Of a stretch of DNA of 39,542 bases, positions 5,578 through 12,218 are shown in pieces. Below the pieces are notes generated by a model. That model searched no databases and had not been told where the DNA came from. It saw nothing but the letters and a program-made list of their open reading frames with translations. The translations under genes were made by a program, and so were the position numbers. The stretch is from Nitrospirota bacterium (lineage in GTDB: Bacteria; Nitrospirota; Nitrospiria; Nitrospirales; Nitrospiraceae), in NCBI GenBank assembly GCA_028876065.1, contig JAGWTI010000024.1:1-39542 (forward strand), read 5' to 3'. Position 1 is the stretch's first letter. Each line of letters begins with the position of its first letter.

Positions 5578-5607
5578 TTGACCCTCTTCTACGCTTGCAG
5601 CTATAAT
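5578..5607 (+). promoter_or_regulatory. Promoter of the heme cluster
   Basis: A -35 TTGACC (5578-5583) and a perfect -10 TATAAT (5602-5607) are 18 bases apart. The predicted start is near 5614, giving a leader of about 45 bases to the ATG at 5659. The element covers the TTG of a longer in-frame reading, which argues against that earlier start. Confidence 0.75.
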
Positions 5608-5658
5608 GATGTTCTTTTAGAGAGGAATTTTCTCTGTGAAGTTGCGAGGATAGGTCGG

Positions 5659-6462
5659 ATGCCGGCCACATTCTTTATCGCGACCCTTGTCTTCTACTTC
5701 ATTGGCACGGGATTTTTCCTGGCCTACTTGTTGCGTCGCTCGGAGGCGCTGTCAAACGTCTCCCTCGGCGTGACGGCTGTCGGGTTCGTGACCCATACCC
5801 TCGCCCTGCTCACGCGCATGCTGGAGGCGGGGCAGGTTGCGCTGGCCAGTTTCCACGAAGCCATGTCGTTTTTTTCCTGGGCCTTGGTGCTGGTGTTCCT
5901 GTTCGTAGAGTTTCGTCATCGTATCCACGTTCTTGGCTCATTCATCCTCCCCCTGGCTTTAATTTCTTTGCTGTCCGCCGCAGCCCTGCCCAAGGAAGTC
6001 CCGACGCTGGAGCCGGTGCTCAAGACGGTATGGGTCCACGTCACGCTCAGCATGCTGGGCACGGTTGGGTTCGCCGTCGCGTTCGTGGCCGGCATCATGT
6101 ACGTGATCCAGGATGGCTTGCTCAAATCCAAGCGCTTCAACGTCCTGTACAGCAAGTTGCCGCCGCTGGATTTCCTGGACCGGCTCAATCAACAGTCGAT
6201 CGTAATGGGCTTCCCGCTTCTGACCTTGGGCATCATCGCCGGGGCTCTTTCCGCCGAATTTGCACGAGGCTCGTACCTCAGTTGGAACCCCGAGCAATTG
6301 TGGGCGTTGGTCACATGGCTGTTTTATTTCGTCGTGCTGATGGGGCGGTTGACCGTCGGGTGGAGGGCCAAACGCGCCGCCTACCTGACGATCATCGGAT
6401 TTGCCGGGGTGGTTTTGACCTTCATCGGCGTGGTGATGAAAGCGCATGGAGCCGTCGCGTGA
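5659..6462 (+). CDS. HemX/CcsA-family membrane protein
   Basis: A polytopic inner-membrane protein of 267 residues, with about eight hydrophobic segments, of the cytochrome c assembly (CcsA/HemX) family. Conserved histidines are seen in VTHTLAL, SFHEAMSFFSW and VWVHVTLSMLG. The heme-handling WWD region is recognisable but degraded: RGSYLSWNPEQLWALVTW, where CcsA has Trp-Gly-x-Tyr-Trp-x-Trp-Asp. This and its place directly before hemA favour a HemX-like role (in Bacillus HemX influences GluTR level) over a true cytochrome c synthase. GAGGA lies eight bases before the ATG at 5659. It is the first gene of the tetrapyrrole cluster; hemA follows after 22 bases. Confidence 0.83.
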   Translation: MPATFFIATLVFYFIGTGFFLAYLLRRSEALSNVSLGVTAVGFVTHTLALLTRMLEAGQVALASFHEAMSFFSWALVLVFLFVEFRHRIHVLGSFILPLALISLLSAAALPKEVPTLEPVLKTVWVHVTLSMLGTVGFAVAFVAGIMYVIQDGLLKSKRFNVLYSKLPPLDFLDRLNQQSIVMGFPLLTLGIIAGALSAEFARGSYLSWNPEQLWALVTWLFYFVVLMGRLTVGWRAKRAAYLTIIGFAGVVLTFIGVVMKAHGAVA

Positions 6463-6484
6463 GCGCATCCGTGAGGCCCGGGTC

Positions 6485-7885
6485 ATGAACGTCATCGCGG
6501 TCGGTTTGAGCCACAAGACGGCTCCCGTGGAAGTGCGCGAACGGTTGGCCGTGCCGGAGAGCCGACTGGGCGAAGCGCTGCACCGGCTCTGCGCCTACCA
6601 GGGGATCAAAGAGGGCGTCCTGCTTTCCACCTGCAACCGCGTCGAAGTCTACGCCGTCGTGGACGACGTCGACGCCGGATTTGCACGGGTGCAGGAATTC
6701 CTGGCCGACACGCACCTTTCTCTGTCTTCCGAACAGCTGACGCCGCACCTCTACTGGCACACCGACGGCCGCGCGATCAGCCATTTGTTCCGGGTGGCCG
6801 CCAGCCTGGACTCGATGGTCGTCGGCGAGCCGCAGATCCTGGGTCAGCTCAAAGACGCCTTCGAGGCATCGCTGACCCACAAGGCCAGCGGCGTGGTGCT
6901 CAACAAGCTGCTCCAAAAAGCGATCTCGGCGGCCAAGCGGGTCCGGACGGAAACCAAAATCGCCGAAACCGCGGTGTCCGTCAGCTATGCCGCCGTGGAA
7001 CTCGCCAAAAAAATCTTCTCGAACCTCAACGAAAAGACGGTCTTGCTGGTCGGGGCCGGAGAGATGGCCAAACTGGCCGCCAAGCATCTGATCAACAACG
7101 GCGTGCAGCGGGTGATGATCACCACCCGCAACCCCCAGGGCGCGATCGAGCTGGCGCAACGCTTCAACGGAACCTCGATCCCGTTCGATGAGTTCCGTCG
7201 GGCCATGTCGGAGGCCGACATCGTCCTCTGTTCAACCGGCGCCGCCCACTACTTGATCGGAACCTCCGACGTGGAAGACGCCATCCGGCGGCGCATGAAC
7301 CGCCCCATTTTCCTGATCGACATCTCCGTGCCGCGCAATATCGAGCCGGCCGTCAAGGACATCGACAACGCGTTTCTGTTCGACATCGACGACCTGGAAA
7401 TGCGGGTCGAACAAAATCGGGAAGAGCGTCGGCGCGAAGCGGTGAAGGCGGAAGGGATGATCGAGGAAGAGGTTGCCGCCAGCCTCCAATGGCTCAAGTC
7501 GTTGGACGTGACGCCGACGATCGTGGCCCTGCGCAAGCGGGCTGAAGACATCAAGCAAGCCGAAATCGACAAAGCCATGGCCCGGCTCGGACACCTGTCG
7601 ACGGAAGAACGCAGCGCGATCGAGGGATTGGCCTCCGCCATCGTCAACAAACTGCTGCACGGCCCGCTCGTTACGCTCAAAACCGAGGCCAATTCCGCCG
7701 GCAGTTCCATGTATGTCGAAGCCGCCAAGCGCTTCTTCGGCTTGGAGGCAGGGCCGGACGCGGCCGCGCTTCCGGCAAAACGTAGGCCGGCCAAGGACGA
7801 GGAGGGAACCGCCGCGCCAGGCCGAGCGCCGGTCGTGGCCATGCAACAGCGCGATCCAGGGGAACCGGAGCACAAACGGGCGTGA
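6485..7885 (+). CDS. hemA: Glutamyl-tRNA reductase
   Basis: HemA reduces glutamyl-tRNA(Glu) with NADPH to glutamate-1-semialdehyde, the committed step of the C5 route to heme. The 466-residue protein starts with MNVIAVGLSHKTAPVEVRE. The catalytic Cys50 is in STCNRVEVY, followed by the SMVVGEPQILGQLK segment, the NADPH-binding VGAGEMAKLAAKHL, and the helical dimerisation domain from about residue 320. The last 45 residues are a Pro/Ala/Arg-rich tail beyond the conserved domain. I chose the ATG at 6485 because it gives the canonical N terminus and has GTGAGG upstream; the ATG at 6446 lies inside the preceding gene. Confidence 0.97.
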   Translation: MNVIAVGLSHKTAPVEVRERLAVPESRLGEALHRLCAYQGIKEGVLLSTCNRVEVYAVVDDVDAGFARVQEFLADTHLSLSSEQLTPHLYWHTDGRAISHLFRVAASLDSMVVGEPQILGQLKDAFEASLTHKASGVVLNKLLQKAISAAKRVRTETKIAETAVSVSYAAVELAKKIFSNLNEKTVLLVGAGEMAKLAAKHLINNGVQRVMITTRNPQGAIELAQRFNGTSIPFDEFRRAMSEADIVLCSTGAAHYLIGTSDVEDAIRRRMNRPIFLIDISVPRNIEPAVKDIDNAFLFDIDDLEMRVEQNREERRREAVKAEGMIEEEVAASLQWLKSLDVTPTIVALRKRAEDIKQAEIDKAMARLGHLSTEERSAIEGLASAIVNKLLHGPLVTLKTEANSAGSSMYVEAAKRFFGLEAGPDAAALPAKRRPAKDEEGTAAPGRAPVVAMQQRDPGEPEHKRA

Positions 7886-7903
7886 CCGACCAAAGGCGAG
7901 GCG

Positions 7904-8230
7904 ATGGCACAGGGCCCTCAACTGTTCACCTGCCCCAAGTGCCGGCATCGGTACCTCGGCCATGAACCGCTTCCCGACTGTCCCCGATGCGGATACGACT
8001 ACCGGGAACGTGAGGGGTTTCGGTGGGACGTGTTGATGTACTTGTTGGCCATCATGGGGTTACTGAGCTTTTTGCTCGTGGCATCTTACTACCGAGGCAA
8101 CTTGGGTGTGATGTCGCGAGAAACGGCCGCTGCGCCACAGGATGGGCTTGAAAAATTGCCCGGCGGATCTCCTCCGGCTGACTCGTCGGGAACGCTCTCC
8201 CCGAATCCTGATCGAAAACCGGGTCGGTGA
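7904..8230 (+). CDS. Zinc-ribbon, single-pass membrane protein of unknown function
   Basis: A 108-residue protein I cannot name. The N terminus holds two CxxC pairs (CPKC at 10-13 and CPRC at 26-29), a zinc-ribbon pattern. After FRWDVL comes one hydrophobic segment (about residues 44-63, MYLLAIMGLLSFLLVASYY), then a Pro/Gly/Ser-rich, probably disordered tail. The ribbon is therefore expected in the cytoplasm with the tail outside, though the reverse cannot be excluded. It lies 18 bases after hemA and 37 bases before hemC, so it is probably co-transcribed with heme genes. A role in tetrapyrrole synthesis is suggested only by position. Confidence 0.75.
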   Translation: MAQGPQLFTCPKCRHRYLGHEPLPDCPRCGYDYREREGFRWDVLMYLLAIMGLLSFLLVASYYRGNLGVMSRETAAAPQDGLEKLPGGSPPADSSGTLSPNPDRKPGR

Positions 8231-8267: not shown

Positions 8268-9218
8268 ATGAAAACACGGACGACCACAACGCGTTCCTCA
8301 TTGATCATCGGAACCAGGGGCAGCAAACTGGCCCTCTGGCAGGCCGAATGGGTCCAGGCCAGCCTGCAGGCGTTGGCCCCGGAACTCTCGGTCACGCTCC
8401 AGACCATCAAGACCTCCGGAGACAAGATTCTGGACGTGCCCCTGGCCGCGATCGGCGGGAAAGGCCTCTTTGTGAAAGAAATCGAAGAGGCGCTGCTGCG
8501 AGAGGATATCGACCTGGCCGTCCACAGCATGAAAGACGTGCCCACGCAACTTCCCGAAGGACTCGCGATTCTGTGTATCCCCGAACGGGAGGACCCGCGC
8601 GACGCGTTGATCAGCCGAAACGAACTCAAACTGGCTGACCTGCCGCCCGGAGCCCGCGTCGGCACGAGCAGCCTTCGCCGGCAAGCCCAACTCCTGCACC
8701 ATCGGCCGGACCTCCGTATCCAGATGCTGCGCGGCAATCTGGACACCCGCCTGCGCAAGGTGCGCGACGGGGACTACGAGGCCATCGTGCTCGCGGCGGC
8801 GGGACTGTCCCGTTTAGGCTGGTCGGACCAAGTGTCGGAATATTTGCCGTACCAGGTCAGCTTGCCGGCCATCGGGCAGGGGGCGATCGGGATCGAGGGA
8901 CGCCGCGACGACGCCTTTGTGCGCTCCCTCGTCCAACAACTTGATCACCAGGCGACTCATACGGCCGTGACCGCGGAACGGGCCCTGCTGGAGCGGCTGG
9001 AAGGAGGGTGCCAGGTCCCCATTGCCGCCCATGCGGTCCTCCGGGGAGACACCCTGCTCATGGACGGGCTTGTGGCCAGCGTCGATGGACAACAGGTGCT
9101 GCGCGAGACGATCGAGGGGCCGGCGACCGAGGCCGAACGTGTGGGACGCCGACTGGCGGAACAGCTGCTGGCCCGCGGCGGCCGCGCGATTTTGAGTCAG
9201 GTGTATGGGAACCGCTGA
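8268..9218 (+). CDS. hemC: Hydroxymethylbilane synthase (porphobilinogen deaminase)
   Basis: HemC joins four porphobilinogens into hydroxymethylbilane. The 316-residue protein shows IGTRGSKLALWQAEWV at the N terminus, KTSGDKI, GGKGLFVKEIEEALL, DLAVHSMKDVPTQLPEGL, GTSSLRRQAQL and LRGNLDTRLRK. The Cys that carries the dipyrromethane cofactor is Cys248 in EGGCQVPIAAHA. The ATG at 8268 is used because the upstream in-frame extension overlaps the zinc-ribbon gene and lacks family similarity; its Shine-Dalgarno (CAGGAAC) is weak. It is one base from the start chosen for cobA-hemD. Confidence 0.97.
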   Translation: MKTRTTTTRSSLIIGTRGSKLALWQAEWVQASLQALAPELSVTLQTIKTSGDKILDVPLAAIGGKGLFVKEIEEALLREDIDLAVHSMKDVPTQLPEGLAILCIPEREDPRDALISRNELKLADLPPGARVGTSSLRRQAQLLHHRPDLRIQMLRGNLDTRLRKVRDGDYEAIVLAAAGLSRLGWSDQVSEYLPYQVSLPAIGQGAIGIEGRRDDAFVRSLVQQLDHQATHTAVTAERALLERLEGGCQVPIAAHAVLRGDTLLMDGLVASVDGQQVLRETIEGPATEAERVGRRLAEQLLARGGRAILSQVYGNR

Positions 9219-9219
9219 C

Positions 9220-10767
9220 ATGGCCAAGAAGAACGGCATGGTCTATTTAGTCGGGGCCGGGCCGGGCGACCCGATGCTCCTGACGCTGCGCGGCAAGGAA
9301 TGCTTGCAGCAGGCCGACGTGGTCCTCTACGATTACCTGGCCAACCCGCTGCTCCTCGCTCACGTCGCACCTCATGCCGAGCGCATCTATGTGGGCCGAC
9401 GGGGACGGGGACGGTACCAGGACCAGGAGGCCATTATCCGCCTCATGATCGAGCGCGCCCGAGCAGGCCGGATCGTCGTCAGGCTGAAAGGGGGAGACCC
9501 CTTCGTGTTCGGACGGGGCGGGGAGGAAGCGGAAGCTGTGGCGGCGGCCGGATTGCCGTTCGAAGTCGTGCCCGGCGTCACTTCCGCCGTGGCCGCGCCG
9601 GCCTATGCCGGCATTCCGGTGACCCACCGCACGTTGGCCTCGACCGTCACGTTCGTGACCGGACACGAAGACCCGGCGAAGGGAGCGGCCACTTTGGAAT
9701 GGCCTCGCCTGGCGGCAAGCCAGGGCACGCTGGTCTTTCTGATGGGCATGAAAAACCTGCCGACCATCGTCGAACACCTCTTGGCTGAGGGAAAGCCGGG
9801 CGAGACGCCGGTCGCCTTGATCCGCTGGGGAACCAGGTCCGACCAACGAACGGTCGTGGGCACGTTGCACACGATCGTCTCCCACGCCCAAGCGGCGGCC
9901 TTGGAGCCTCCCACCATCATTGTGGTCGGCGAGGTGGTGCGGCTCCGCGAGCAATTGAATTGGTTTGAAACCAAGCCCCTGTTCGGCAAACGCATTCTCG
10001 TGACCAGGGCCAAGGAACAAGCGGGGGAACTGACCCAGCTGCTCAGAGCCTATGGGGCAGACCCGGTTGAATGCCCGACGATCGACATCGTCCCGCCCGA
10101 GTCCTGGGAAGAACTGGACGGGGCGGTGGCCAGACTGGCTCGCTATCAATGGCTGATCTTCACCAGCGTGAACGGCGTTCGGCCCTTCATGGAGCGACTG
10201 CACCGGCAGGGCCTGGACAGCCGTACCTTGTCCGGCCTGCGGATTGCCTGCATCGGGCCGCGGACGGCCCAGGAATTAGCCACCTACGGCCTGCGCGCCG
10301 ACTTGCTCCCCTCGGAATTTCAAGCCGAAGGATTGGTGGAGGCCATGAAAGCCGCGGGGGTTGCCGGACAGCAGGTGCTGATCCCCCGCGCCGCCGTGGC
10401 GCGCGAGCTCCTTCCCGAACAGTTGCGCGCACTCGGGGCGGCCGTGTCGGTCGTCACGGCCTATCGGACGATCTGCCCGGCGGCGGACCGGGCCTGGGTC
10501 AAAGATCTCCTCCGGCGGGGTGCGATCCACGTCATCACCTTCGCCAGTTCCTCGACCGTCCGCAATTTTACACAGCTGTTCGACAGCCGGGATGAGATGA
10601 AGGCCCTGACCGCCGGCGCGGCCGTCGCCTGCATCGGCCCCATCACGGCCCAGACCGCCTCGGAGCTGGGCATGCCCGCAACCATCACGGCGGCCGAAAA
10701 CACCATCCCGGCATTGGTGGAGGCGATCCTCCGACATGCCGCGAGTCCGGCCATGGCCACTTCTTGA
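9220..10767 (+). CDS. cobA-hemD: Fused uroporphyrinogen-III C-methyltransferase / uroporphyrinogen-III synthase
   Basis: A two-domain fusion of 515 residues. The N-terminal half (about 1-245) is SUMT/CobA, which methylates uroporphyrinogen III towards siroheme and corrinoids. Its motifs are VYLVGAGPGDPMLLTLRG, GGDPFVFGRGGEE, VVPGVTSA and GIPVTHR. The C-terminal half (about 255-510) is HemD, which cyclises hydroxymethylbilane to uroporphyrinogen III; FGKRILVTRAKEQA and IFTSVNGVRPF are visible. The fusion puts the branch-point product and its first methylation in one polypeptide. An alternative ATG at 9205, overlapping hemC, would add five residues. It directly follows hemC, so translational coupling is likely. 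Confidence 0.94.
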   Translation: MAKKNGMVYLVGAGPGDPMLLTLRGKECLQQADVVLYDYLANPLLLAHVAPHAERIYVGRRGRGRYQDQEAIIRLMIERARAGRIVVRLKGGDPFVFGRGGEEAEAVAAAGLPFEVVPGVTSAVAAPAYAGIPVTHRTLASTVTFVTGHEDPAKGAATLEWPRLAASQGTLVFLMGMKNLPTIVEHLLAEGKPGETPVALIRWGTRSDQRTVVGTLHTIVSHAQAAALEPPTIIVVGEVVRLREQLNWFETKPLFGKRILVTRAKEQAGELTQLLRAYGADPVECPTIDIVPPESWEELDGAVARLARYQWLIFTSVNGVRPFMERLHRQGLDSRTLSGLRIACIGPRTAQELATYGLRADLLPSEFQAEGLVEAMKAAGVAGQQVLIPRAAVARELLPEQLRALGAAVSVVTAYRTICPAADRAWVKDLLRRGAIHVITFASSSTVRNFTQLFDSRDEMKALTAGAAVACIGPITAQTASELGMPATITAAENTIPALVEAILRHAASPAMATS

Positions 10768-10842: not shown

Positions 10843-11235
10843 ATGGTTCCAGTGAAATCGTTCATGGTGCCGAAGGACAAATTCATTTCGGTGGACCGGG
10901 ACACGGATGTCCGGAAGGCGGCCCAGGTCATGCGCGACCGCAACATCGGCAGCGTCTTCATCACGAGGGATAACGAGATCATCGGCATTCTCACCGATAC
11001 CGACCTCGTGCGGCGCGTCGTCGCGGTGGGCGCCGATGCCGCCAAAACCCCCGTCGAGCAGATCATGTCGGCGCCGATCCTGACCATCGAGGAAAACAAG
11101 ACCATCCTCGACGCCAACGACATGATGGCCGCTCACCATTTGCGCCATCTCGGGGTGACCAGGAACGGCGCCTTGGTGGGGATGATTTCGGTACGCGACC
11201 TGGTCGTGTTCCTGACCAATCTCCCGAGAAAGTAG
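10843..11235 (+). CDS. CBS-domain pair protein
   Basis: A 130-residue protein consisting of two CBS domains in tandem (about residues 8-60 and 72-127), the Bateman module that senses adenine nucleotides or related ligands. Seen motifs are [23 protein letters not shown] with [11 protein letters not shown] in the first, and [16 protein letters not shown] with [11 protein letters not shown] in the second. There is no attached effector domain. GGAGGG lies just before the ATG. It is placed between cobA-hemD (75 bases) and hemB (8 bases). A regulatory role in heme synthesis is a guess from position; stand-alone CBS proteins occur in many contexts. Confidence 0.9.
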
Positions 11236-11243
11236 GGACGAGC

Positions 11244-12218
11244 ATGGCGTTTCCCTGTCAACGATTGAGGCGCTTGCGGCAGAGCGAGCCCCTGCGCCGG
11301 ATGGTCAGAGAGACGCACCTCAGACCGGAGGACTTGATCTATCCCTTGTTTGTGGTGACCGGCCGAGACCAGCGGCAGCCGATTGCTTCCATGCCCGGTC
11401 AGTTCCGCCTGTCGATCGATCTGCTGGTCAAGGAGGCCGCCGACGCCAGGCAGCTCGGCATTCCGGCCGTGATTCTCTTCGGCATTCCCGACAAGAAGGA
11501 CGAGCGGGGATCGGGCGCCTACGACCCGGACGGGATCGTTCAACGGGCCGTCAAGACCTTGAAGGAACAGGTGCCGGGGCTCGTCGTCATCACCGACGTC
11601 TGTATCGACGAGTACACATCCCACGGCCATTGCGGCCTCGTCCAAGACGGACGGATCCTGAACGACGAAACCTTGGAGTGTCTGCGGGCCATGGCCCTGA
11701 CCCACGCCAAGGCCGGGGTGGACATGCTGGCGCCTTCCGACATGATGGATGGGCGCGTCGGCGCCATCCGCGAGGAACTGGACCGAGGAGGATTCAGCGA
11801 GCTGCCCATTATGGCCTATAGTGCCAAGTTCGCCTCCTGCTTCTACGCCCCCTTCCGCGAGGCGGCGGATTCCAGCCCCAAGTTCGGCGACCGCCAATCC
11901 TACCAGATGGACCCGGCCAACGCGCGCGAAGCGCTCAGGGAAATCGACTTGGATATCGAGGAGGGGGCGGACATTGTCATGGTCAAGCCTGCCTTGCCCT
12001 TCTTGGACATCATCGCCGCCGCGAGGGCCAGGACCAACCATCCCATCGCCGCCTACCAAGTCAGCGGGGAATACAGCATGATCAAAGCCGCGGCTCACGC
12101 CGGCTGGTTGGATGAGACCCGGGCCATGCTGGAATCGCTCGTGTCGATCAAGCGGGCCGGCGCCGATCTGATTCTGACCTATTTTGCGAAAGAAGCAGCC
12201 CGGCTGCTTCACGGCTGA
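11244..12218 (+). CDS. hemB: Delta-aminolevulinic acid dehydratase (porphobilinogen synthase)
   Basis: HemB condenses two 5-aminolevulinate molecules into porphobilinogen. The 324-residue protein has both Schiff-base lysines, Lys195 in YSAKFAS and Lys248 in [11 protein letters not shown]. The active-site metal loop reads [14 protein letters not shown]: Cys120, Asp122 and Cys130. The zinc-type enzyme of E. coli has Cys at all three places, while magnesium-type enzymes have Ala/Asp/Asp, so this site is mixed. The allosteric region [10 protein letters not shown] is present. The gene lies 8 bases after the CBS gene and 4 bases before ribF, which suggests an operon continuing out of the heme cluster. 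Confidence 0.97.

Follow-up and report, generated by a model that had tools for sequence, protein, structure and literature searches.

The window, which is the whole stretch of 39,542 nucleotides analysed here, carries a cluster of tetrapyrrole genes on its forward strand. Their products come in the order HemX-like protein, HemA, a small zinc-ribbon membrane protein to which we give the working name ZRM, HemC, a CobA-HemD fusion, a CBS-domain protein and HemB. The first gene (5578–6462) encodes a HemX-like, CcsA-family membrane protein recognised by PF01578 (5.4e-33); its NCBIfam CcsB score of 166.7 bits lies under the cut-off of 187.6. The open reading frame of hemA, for glutamyl-tRNA reductase (GluTR), spans 6446–7885, with the methionine kept in relatives at 6485, and is followed by the ZRM gene (7904–8230, ATG start, TGA stop), by hemC for hydroxymethylbilane synthase (8268–9218), cobA-hemD (9205–10767), the CBS-domain gene (10843–11235) and hemB for porphobilinogen synthase (11244–12218). 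HemA, HemC, CobA-HemD and HemB all exceed curated cut-offs. The end of hemA at 7885 is separated from ZRM by 18 bases (7886–7903) with a purine-rich aaaggcgagg, by direct reading a candidate ribosome-binding site, and another 37 bases lead to the hemC ATG at 8268. The tight tetrapyrrole operon proposed in a preliminary description of this DNA is thereby confirmed, with its neighbours now supported by profiles.

The cluster has further features of its own. CobA-HemD is a natural fusion, and the stand-alone CBS protein between it and hemB is 60–95% identical across relatives and likewise placed in most related loci long enough to reach that position. HemA carries a long, variable C-terminal extension past its dimerisation domain (7760–7885 in the window; compared in loci L024–L036 and L100–L112). 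This extension is present in most genomes of the window's family (f1) and of family f3, with or without ZRM, and is short in family f4.

The ZRM gene encodes, as first described, a 108-residue protein with the cysteine pairs CPKC (residues 10–13) and CPRC (residues 26–29) and one hydrophobic segment. Residues 8–42 (7925–8029) form the zinc-ribbon segment with the pattern CPxC-x12-CPxCG, residues 43–65 (8030–8098) the membrane helix, and residues 66–108 (8099–8227) a C-terminal tail predicted to lie outside the cytoplasm. An AlphaFold2 model built from 28 sequences (mean pLDDT 67.4, pTM 0.33) places a β-hairpin at residues 6–9 and 16–19 and a helix at 41–68, the latter within a block of pLDDT 92–94, followed by a low-confidence tail. 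Conservation was read from two alignments, A1 with 23 rows and A2 with 28, which overlap in that many rows are one gene fetched twice. The four cysteines are invariant in both (23/23 and 28/28), so that the loss of cysteines in homologs, named beforehand as a refuting outcome, was not found. Between the pairs lie 12 residues in f1 rows and 14 in f2-type rows of A2, where a glycine follows the second pair in every one of the 28 rows and the first pair in none.

Basic residues flanking the helix are at least as numerous on its N-terminal as on its C-terminal side in 28/28 A2 rows, and strictly more numerous in 27, which favours a ribbon-in topology with a cytoplasmic N-terminus; in our reading of the sequence the protein has no signal peptide. 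We infer that the N-terminal CPxC-x12/14-CPxCG knuckle is a cytoplasmic structural zinc ribbon, and that the helix sits at the inner membrane. The tail had been called disordered, for which its low model confidence speaks, but it contains the motif EKLPG (residues 83–87; 8150–8164), kept in 28/28 A2 rows, and a C-terminus conserved within f1 (consensus PYxExGR in A1), from which the copy in the window has diverged. Proteins of the f2 type terminate at EKLPGR, while those of f1 extend further, often to near PYHEPGR. Variants of the motif occur outside A2, namely EKPPG (L002), KKLPS (L088) and EKLPA (L071/L097), and the L017 copy ends before it.

How widespread is this protein? In a sample of 41 genomes, the window's own included, drawn mostly from its genus, family and order, 23 carry it, and it occurs at 31 loci in a species-genome collection. 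Thirty of these loci bear Nitrospira- or Nitrospirota-type labels; the remaining one, L071, is labelled Nitrospinota, and the protein read from its ZRM frame is identical to that of L097 in genome G390, a genome assigned by the database used to family f3 in the window's order. A profile search of the phylum matched 31 of 395 genomes, 28 strongly (E ≤ 2.7e-18) and three weakly. The strong matches fall within a single order, with 23 in f1, 3 in f2 and 2 in f3. The weak matches, in G337 (3.2e-4), G240 (7.1e-4) and G124 (7.7e-4), were set aside: the first is a different, unlinked small ribbon-plus-helix protein beside an HU-like gene (L098, 1459–1710), and the frames of the other two hold three stops and one stop, respectively. 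A search of the window's own genome at E up to 10 gave no second copy. A literature search of the available papers found none joining Nitrospira, hemA, hemC and a zinc ribbon, and among the titles and abstract openings it returned none describes the gene.

Selection on the gene is evident from comparisons within the genus, where the dN/dS figures are rough because some dS values are saturated. Against L002 the ratio (NG86) is 0.118 overall, 0.07 for the ribbon, 0.165 for the tail and 0 for residues 43–65, in which no amino acid changes at a pS of 0.52. When L002, L003 and L004 are compared with each other, the helix is again without amino-acid change (pS 0.11–0.22), with ratios of 0.04–0.15 for the ribbon and 0.28–0.40 for the tail. 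Residues 43–65 are thus identical across four same-genus genes at pS 0.11–0.75, and the unchanged helix suggests that this segment may be more than a greasy anchor. Judged from these sequences, ZRM is a genuine, selected, order-restricted and uncharacterised family.

Where the family occurs, its position is nearly constant. The gene is flanked by HemA and HemC in 22 of the 23 loci of the 41-genome sample, in 30 of the 31 species-collection loci and in 25 of 26 further phylum loci (L072–L097). The exceptions at L011 and L053, each with HemC alone, count as one case since they share the same protein and both lie on 21,570-base contigs; the third, L075, is genome G013 again. In G013, ZRM stays with hemC, cobA-hemD and the CBS gene and is separate from hemA; the genes upstream of it at L053 are divergent and, as read from their open reading frames, murA-like and hisG-like. 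The hemA of G013 is on another contig and runs to the contig end, and no 12-mer is common to that end and L053. A real rearrangement looks likely, an assembly fault being the other possibility. All strong homologues with a readable neighbourhood adjoin hemC. The proposed conservation of the placement across Nitrospirota therefore holds for nearly all loci that have the gene but not for the phylum, given that strong matches are confined to 28 of 395 genomes and one order. As for relatives unlinked to heme genes, which were to count against a heme role, no strong homologue lies off such genes, but the G013 copy has come away from hemA.

Many relatives do without the protein altogether. Of the 41 genomes 18 lack ZRM, and 17 of those gave a HemA match. 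In the ZRM-less loci of 16 of these and 11 more genomes, HemA stops 7–193 bases before the aligned HemC start (the incomplete L040 was left out of this measurement), a gap too short for ZRM, and none of the 27 loci holds a replacement gene. In the eight of these 27 gaps that were inspected by eye in three forward frames, no ZRM relic was recognised. A FastTree phylogeny of HemA plus HemC (65 tips, 732 columns) comprised 38 tips with ZRM and 27 without; the carriers L053, L054 and L062 were dropped for short sequence, and the ZRM of L019 is identical to that of L064. Fitch parsimony counts seven changes of presence on this tree, compared with a mean of 21 and a minimum of 14 after shuffling, and nine losses are required if a single gain is placed at the ancestor of all carriers. 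As reconstructed from these sequences, the tree is compatible with a single early gain followed by about nine losses, from which ZRM would appear useful but dispensable and cannot be a core part of the pathway. Over 18 genomes, ZRM and HemA distances are closely correlated (r 0.97), as expected under vertical descent. Two copies are frameshifted, L017/L095 (L017, 1501–1960) and L071/L097 (L071, 2916–3260); they look broken, which may reflect either decay or assembly error.

Comparison with known families gives no assignment. Neither a Pfam nor an NCBIfam model reaches its cut-off with the window protein, in agreement with the earlier remark that it matches no heme-pathway enzyme. The weak profile matches fall mostly into zinc-ribbon classes, namely PhnA/YjdM, DUF983, MJ0042-type and rubrerythrin-like. 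PhnA/YjdM, rubrerythrin-like and MJ0042-type ribbons share the knuckle class of ZRM and are all under cut-off, and none of them is known to have its helix and tail. DUF983 (PF06170) resembles ZRM in a CPxCG followed by a membrane segment, and 13 of the 28 members match it weakly (best E 0.00053); the window protein, however, scores 12.7 bits against a cut-off of 22.6, with the match confined to residues 24–53. DUF983 genes have been depicted within COX operons (PMC4013037); ZRM has no adjacent oxidase genes.

In structure searches the top Foldseek match is the ZitP zinc finger at E=0.84, with nothing below E 0.001. A second structural comparison gives Z of at most 2.5, and a sequence search of solved structures returns weak zinc-ribbon matches, for example ribosomal protein L32, with a best E of 0.06. 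The predicted fold, zinc-ribbon-like plus a helix, thus appears to be without a confident structural relative, which is not evidence of a new fold.

Caulobacter ZitP likewise has an N-terminal CxxC...CxxC ribbon, one membrane segment and a C-terminal part beyond the membrane. ZRM has four cysteines in its N-terminal segment; PF13719 (zinc_ribbon_5), the model for the ZitP ribbon, is not among the matches listed for the window protein, and the related PF13717 scores 12.5 against 30.3 bits and is weak in 11/28 members. The ZitP papers report a spacing of 19 (PMC5182063), as opposed to 12 or 14 in ZRM, and a long cytoplasmic linker and a DUF3426 domain at residues 128–245 (PMC5182065, PMC5182063), as opposed to a tail of about 43 residues. 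ZitP is moreover a polarity protein, whereas the ZRM gene sits in a hem cluster. No DUF3426 match is listed for the window protein or the 28 members, and ZitP was rejected as a family assignment for this reason.

Can the neighbours tell us with whom ZRM works? Over 18 genomes, partial rate correlations reach 0.53 for HemA and 0.51 for HemX, above HemC. Within f1 (14 genomes) they become 0.59 for CobA-HemD, 0.29 for HemA, 0.25 for HemX, 0.24 for HemC and 0.13 for the CBS protein, so that the 18-genome signal is not upheld. Columns conserved in carriers only number none in HemX, one in HemA and five in HemC, mostly with conservative changes; by this measure, the loss of ZRM seems to be barely reflected in either HemX or HemA.

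HemB was considered for its metal site. The motif DxCxDEYTxHGHCG, which we take to be linked to zinc, occurs in 29 of 30 loci (the window and L113–L141; 17 with ZRM, 11 without, 1 unknown), the HemB of G038 being missed by the motif pattern. Since it is alike with and without ZRM, HemB metal type was rejected as the reason for the gene. Zinc-type HemB enzymes have three cysteines at these positions; the window HemB (11244–12218) has a hybrid cysteine-aspartate-cysteine motif. A second HemB match, 52% identical, is present in a ZRM-less genome (G009:C1:182823-183761).

Our tentative best explanation is that ZRM serves the early steps of tetrapyrrole synthesis as a bitopic membrane adaptor. The cytoplasmic ribbon, held at the inner membrane by the helix, would dock one of the early heme enzymes (GluTR/HemA or HemC), recruiting it to the membrane next to HemX or else adjusting its amount, and the EKLPG tail would meet a partner on the other membrane face. 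Because many relatives have lost it, ZRM would fine-tune heme synthesis and not enable it. Residence in the hem cluster, invariant cysteines, the unchanged helix, the ribbon-in charge pattern and the single copy in the window's genome are all sequence features consistent with this role.

Two precedents together support the adaptor reading. ZitP is reported to be bitopic, its cytoplasmic zinc ribbon binding PopZ directly and the rest anchoring it (PMC5182065, PMC5182063). HemX of Bacillus and Staphylococcus is a hem-operon membrane protein, with a HemX-like protein present in the window too, but a PF01578 protein, whereas ZRM is a single-pass zinc ribbon without a PF01578 match. In S. aureus HemX keeps GluTR low by a mechanism described as undefined (PMC5801465). 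A further precedent comes from plants, where GluTR is down-regulated by the membrane protein FLU, a case of membrane-tethered control (PMC4726326). What speaks against the adaptor are the weak structural matches and the partner covariation that was not upheld, and we put its probability somewhat below even. Repeated loss and the G013 separation from hemA weaken a dedicated GluTR role in particular.

An unlikely but serious alternative is a ZitP-like membrane zinc-ribbon protein whose job is unrelated to heme and which is kept in the operon by descent. Whether or not ZRM is present, the genes of the cluster keep the same order throughout, so position alone is modest evidence of function and may reflect shared descent only; moreover, about nine losses left the cluster undisturbed, and f1 gives no partner signal. 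Such a passenger would not, however, be expected to have its strong homologues confined to the hem cluster, nor to remain with hemC, cobA-hemD and the CBS gene after the break in G013.

The adaptor reading has a more far-reaching extension, which we regard as speculative and rather doubtful: ZRM might represent an undescribed class of bacterial tetrapyrrole control protein, a zinc-ribbon hub that would collect GluTR and hydroxymethylbilane synthase at the inner membrane, or restrain them there, on signals from its outer-face EKLPG tail. Taken jointly with this, and equally doubtful, it could control heme, siroheme and related cofactors in nitrite-oxidizer lineages, as a counterpart of plant FLU made from unrelated parts. 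FLU is a TPR protein, a type unlike ZRM, and no homology is claimed.

A sensor seems quite unlikely. The four-cysteine site would gain or lose zinc, or oxidise, and ZRM would then shift pathway flux, matching for example heme synthesis to metal supply. The invariance of the site and the cysteine-containing metal motif of HemB in the same cluster fit this, but that motif does not follow the presence of ZRM, and the 12–14-residue spacing and CPxC knuckles seem to resemble ordinary structural ribbons. Rubredoxin knuckles usually carry a glycine after the cysteine pair. An iron site passing electrons at the membrane is very improbable, as the glycine is missing after the first pair in all 28 members, the window protein falls under the cut-offs (12.7 vs 23 for PF00301, 16.6 vs 32 for NF033497) and no adjacent pathway step needs such a donor, even though its best NCBIfam match is a rubrerythrin-like domain (E=0.0048; 11/28 members match) and Pfam Rubredoxin is weak in 5/28.

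If ZRM is a passenger, it joins the other small membrane zinc-ribbon families that are uncharacterised. If the adaptor reading is true, the protein would be a minimal system in which to test how bacteria hold the enzymes of the first tetrapyrrole steps at the membrane or limit them there, set in heme-demanding nitrite oxidizers, with the natural ZRM losses as ready comparison strains.
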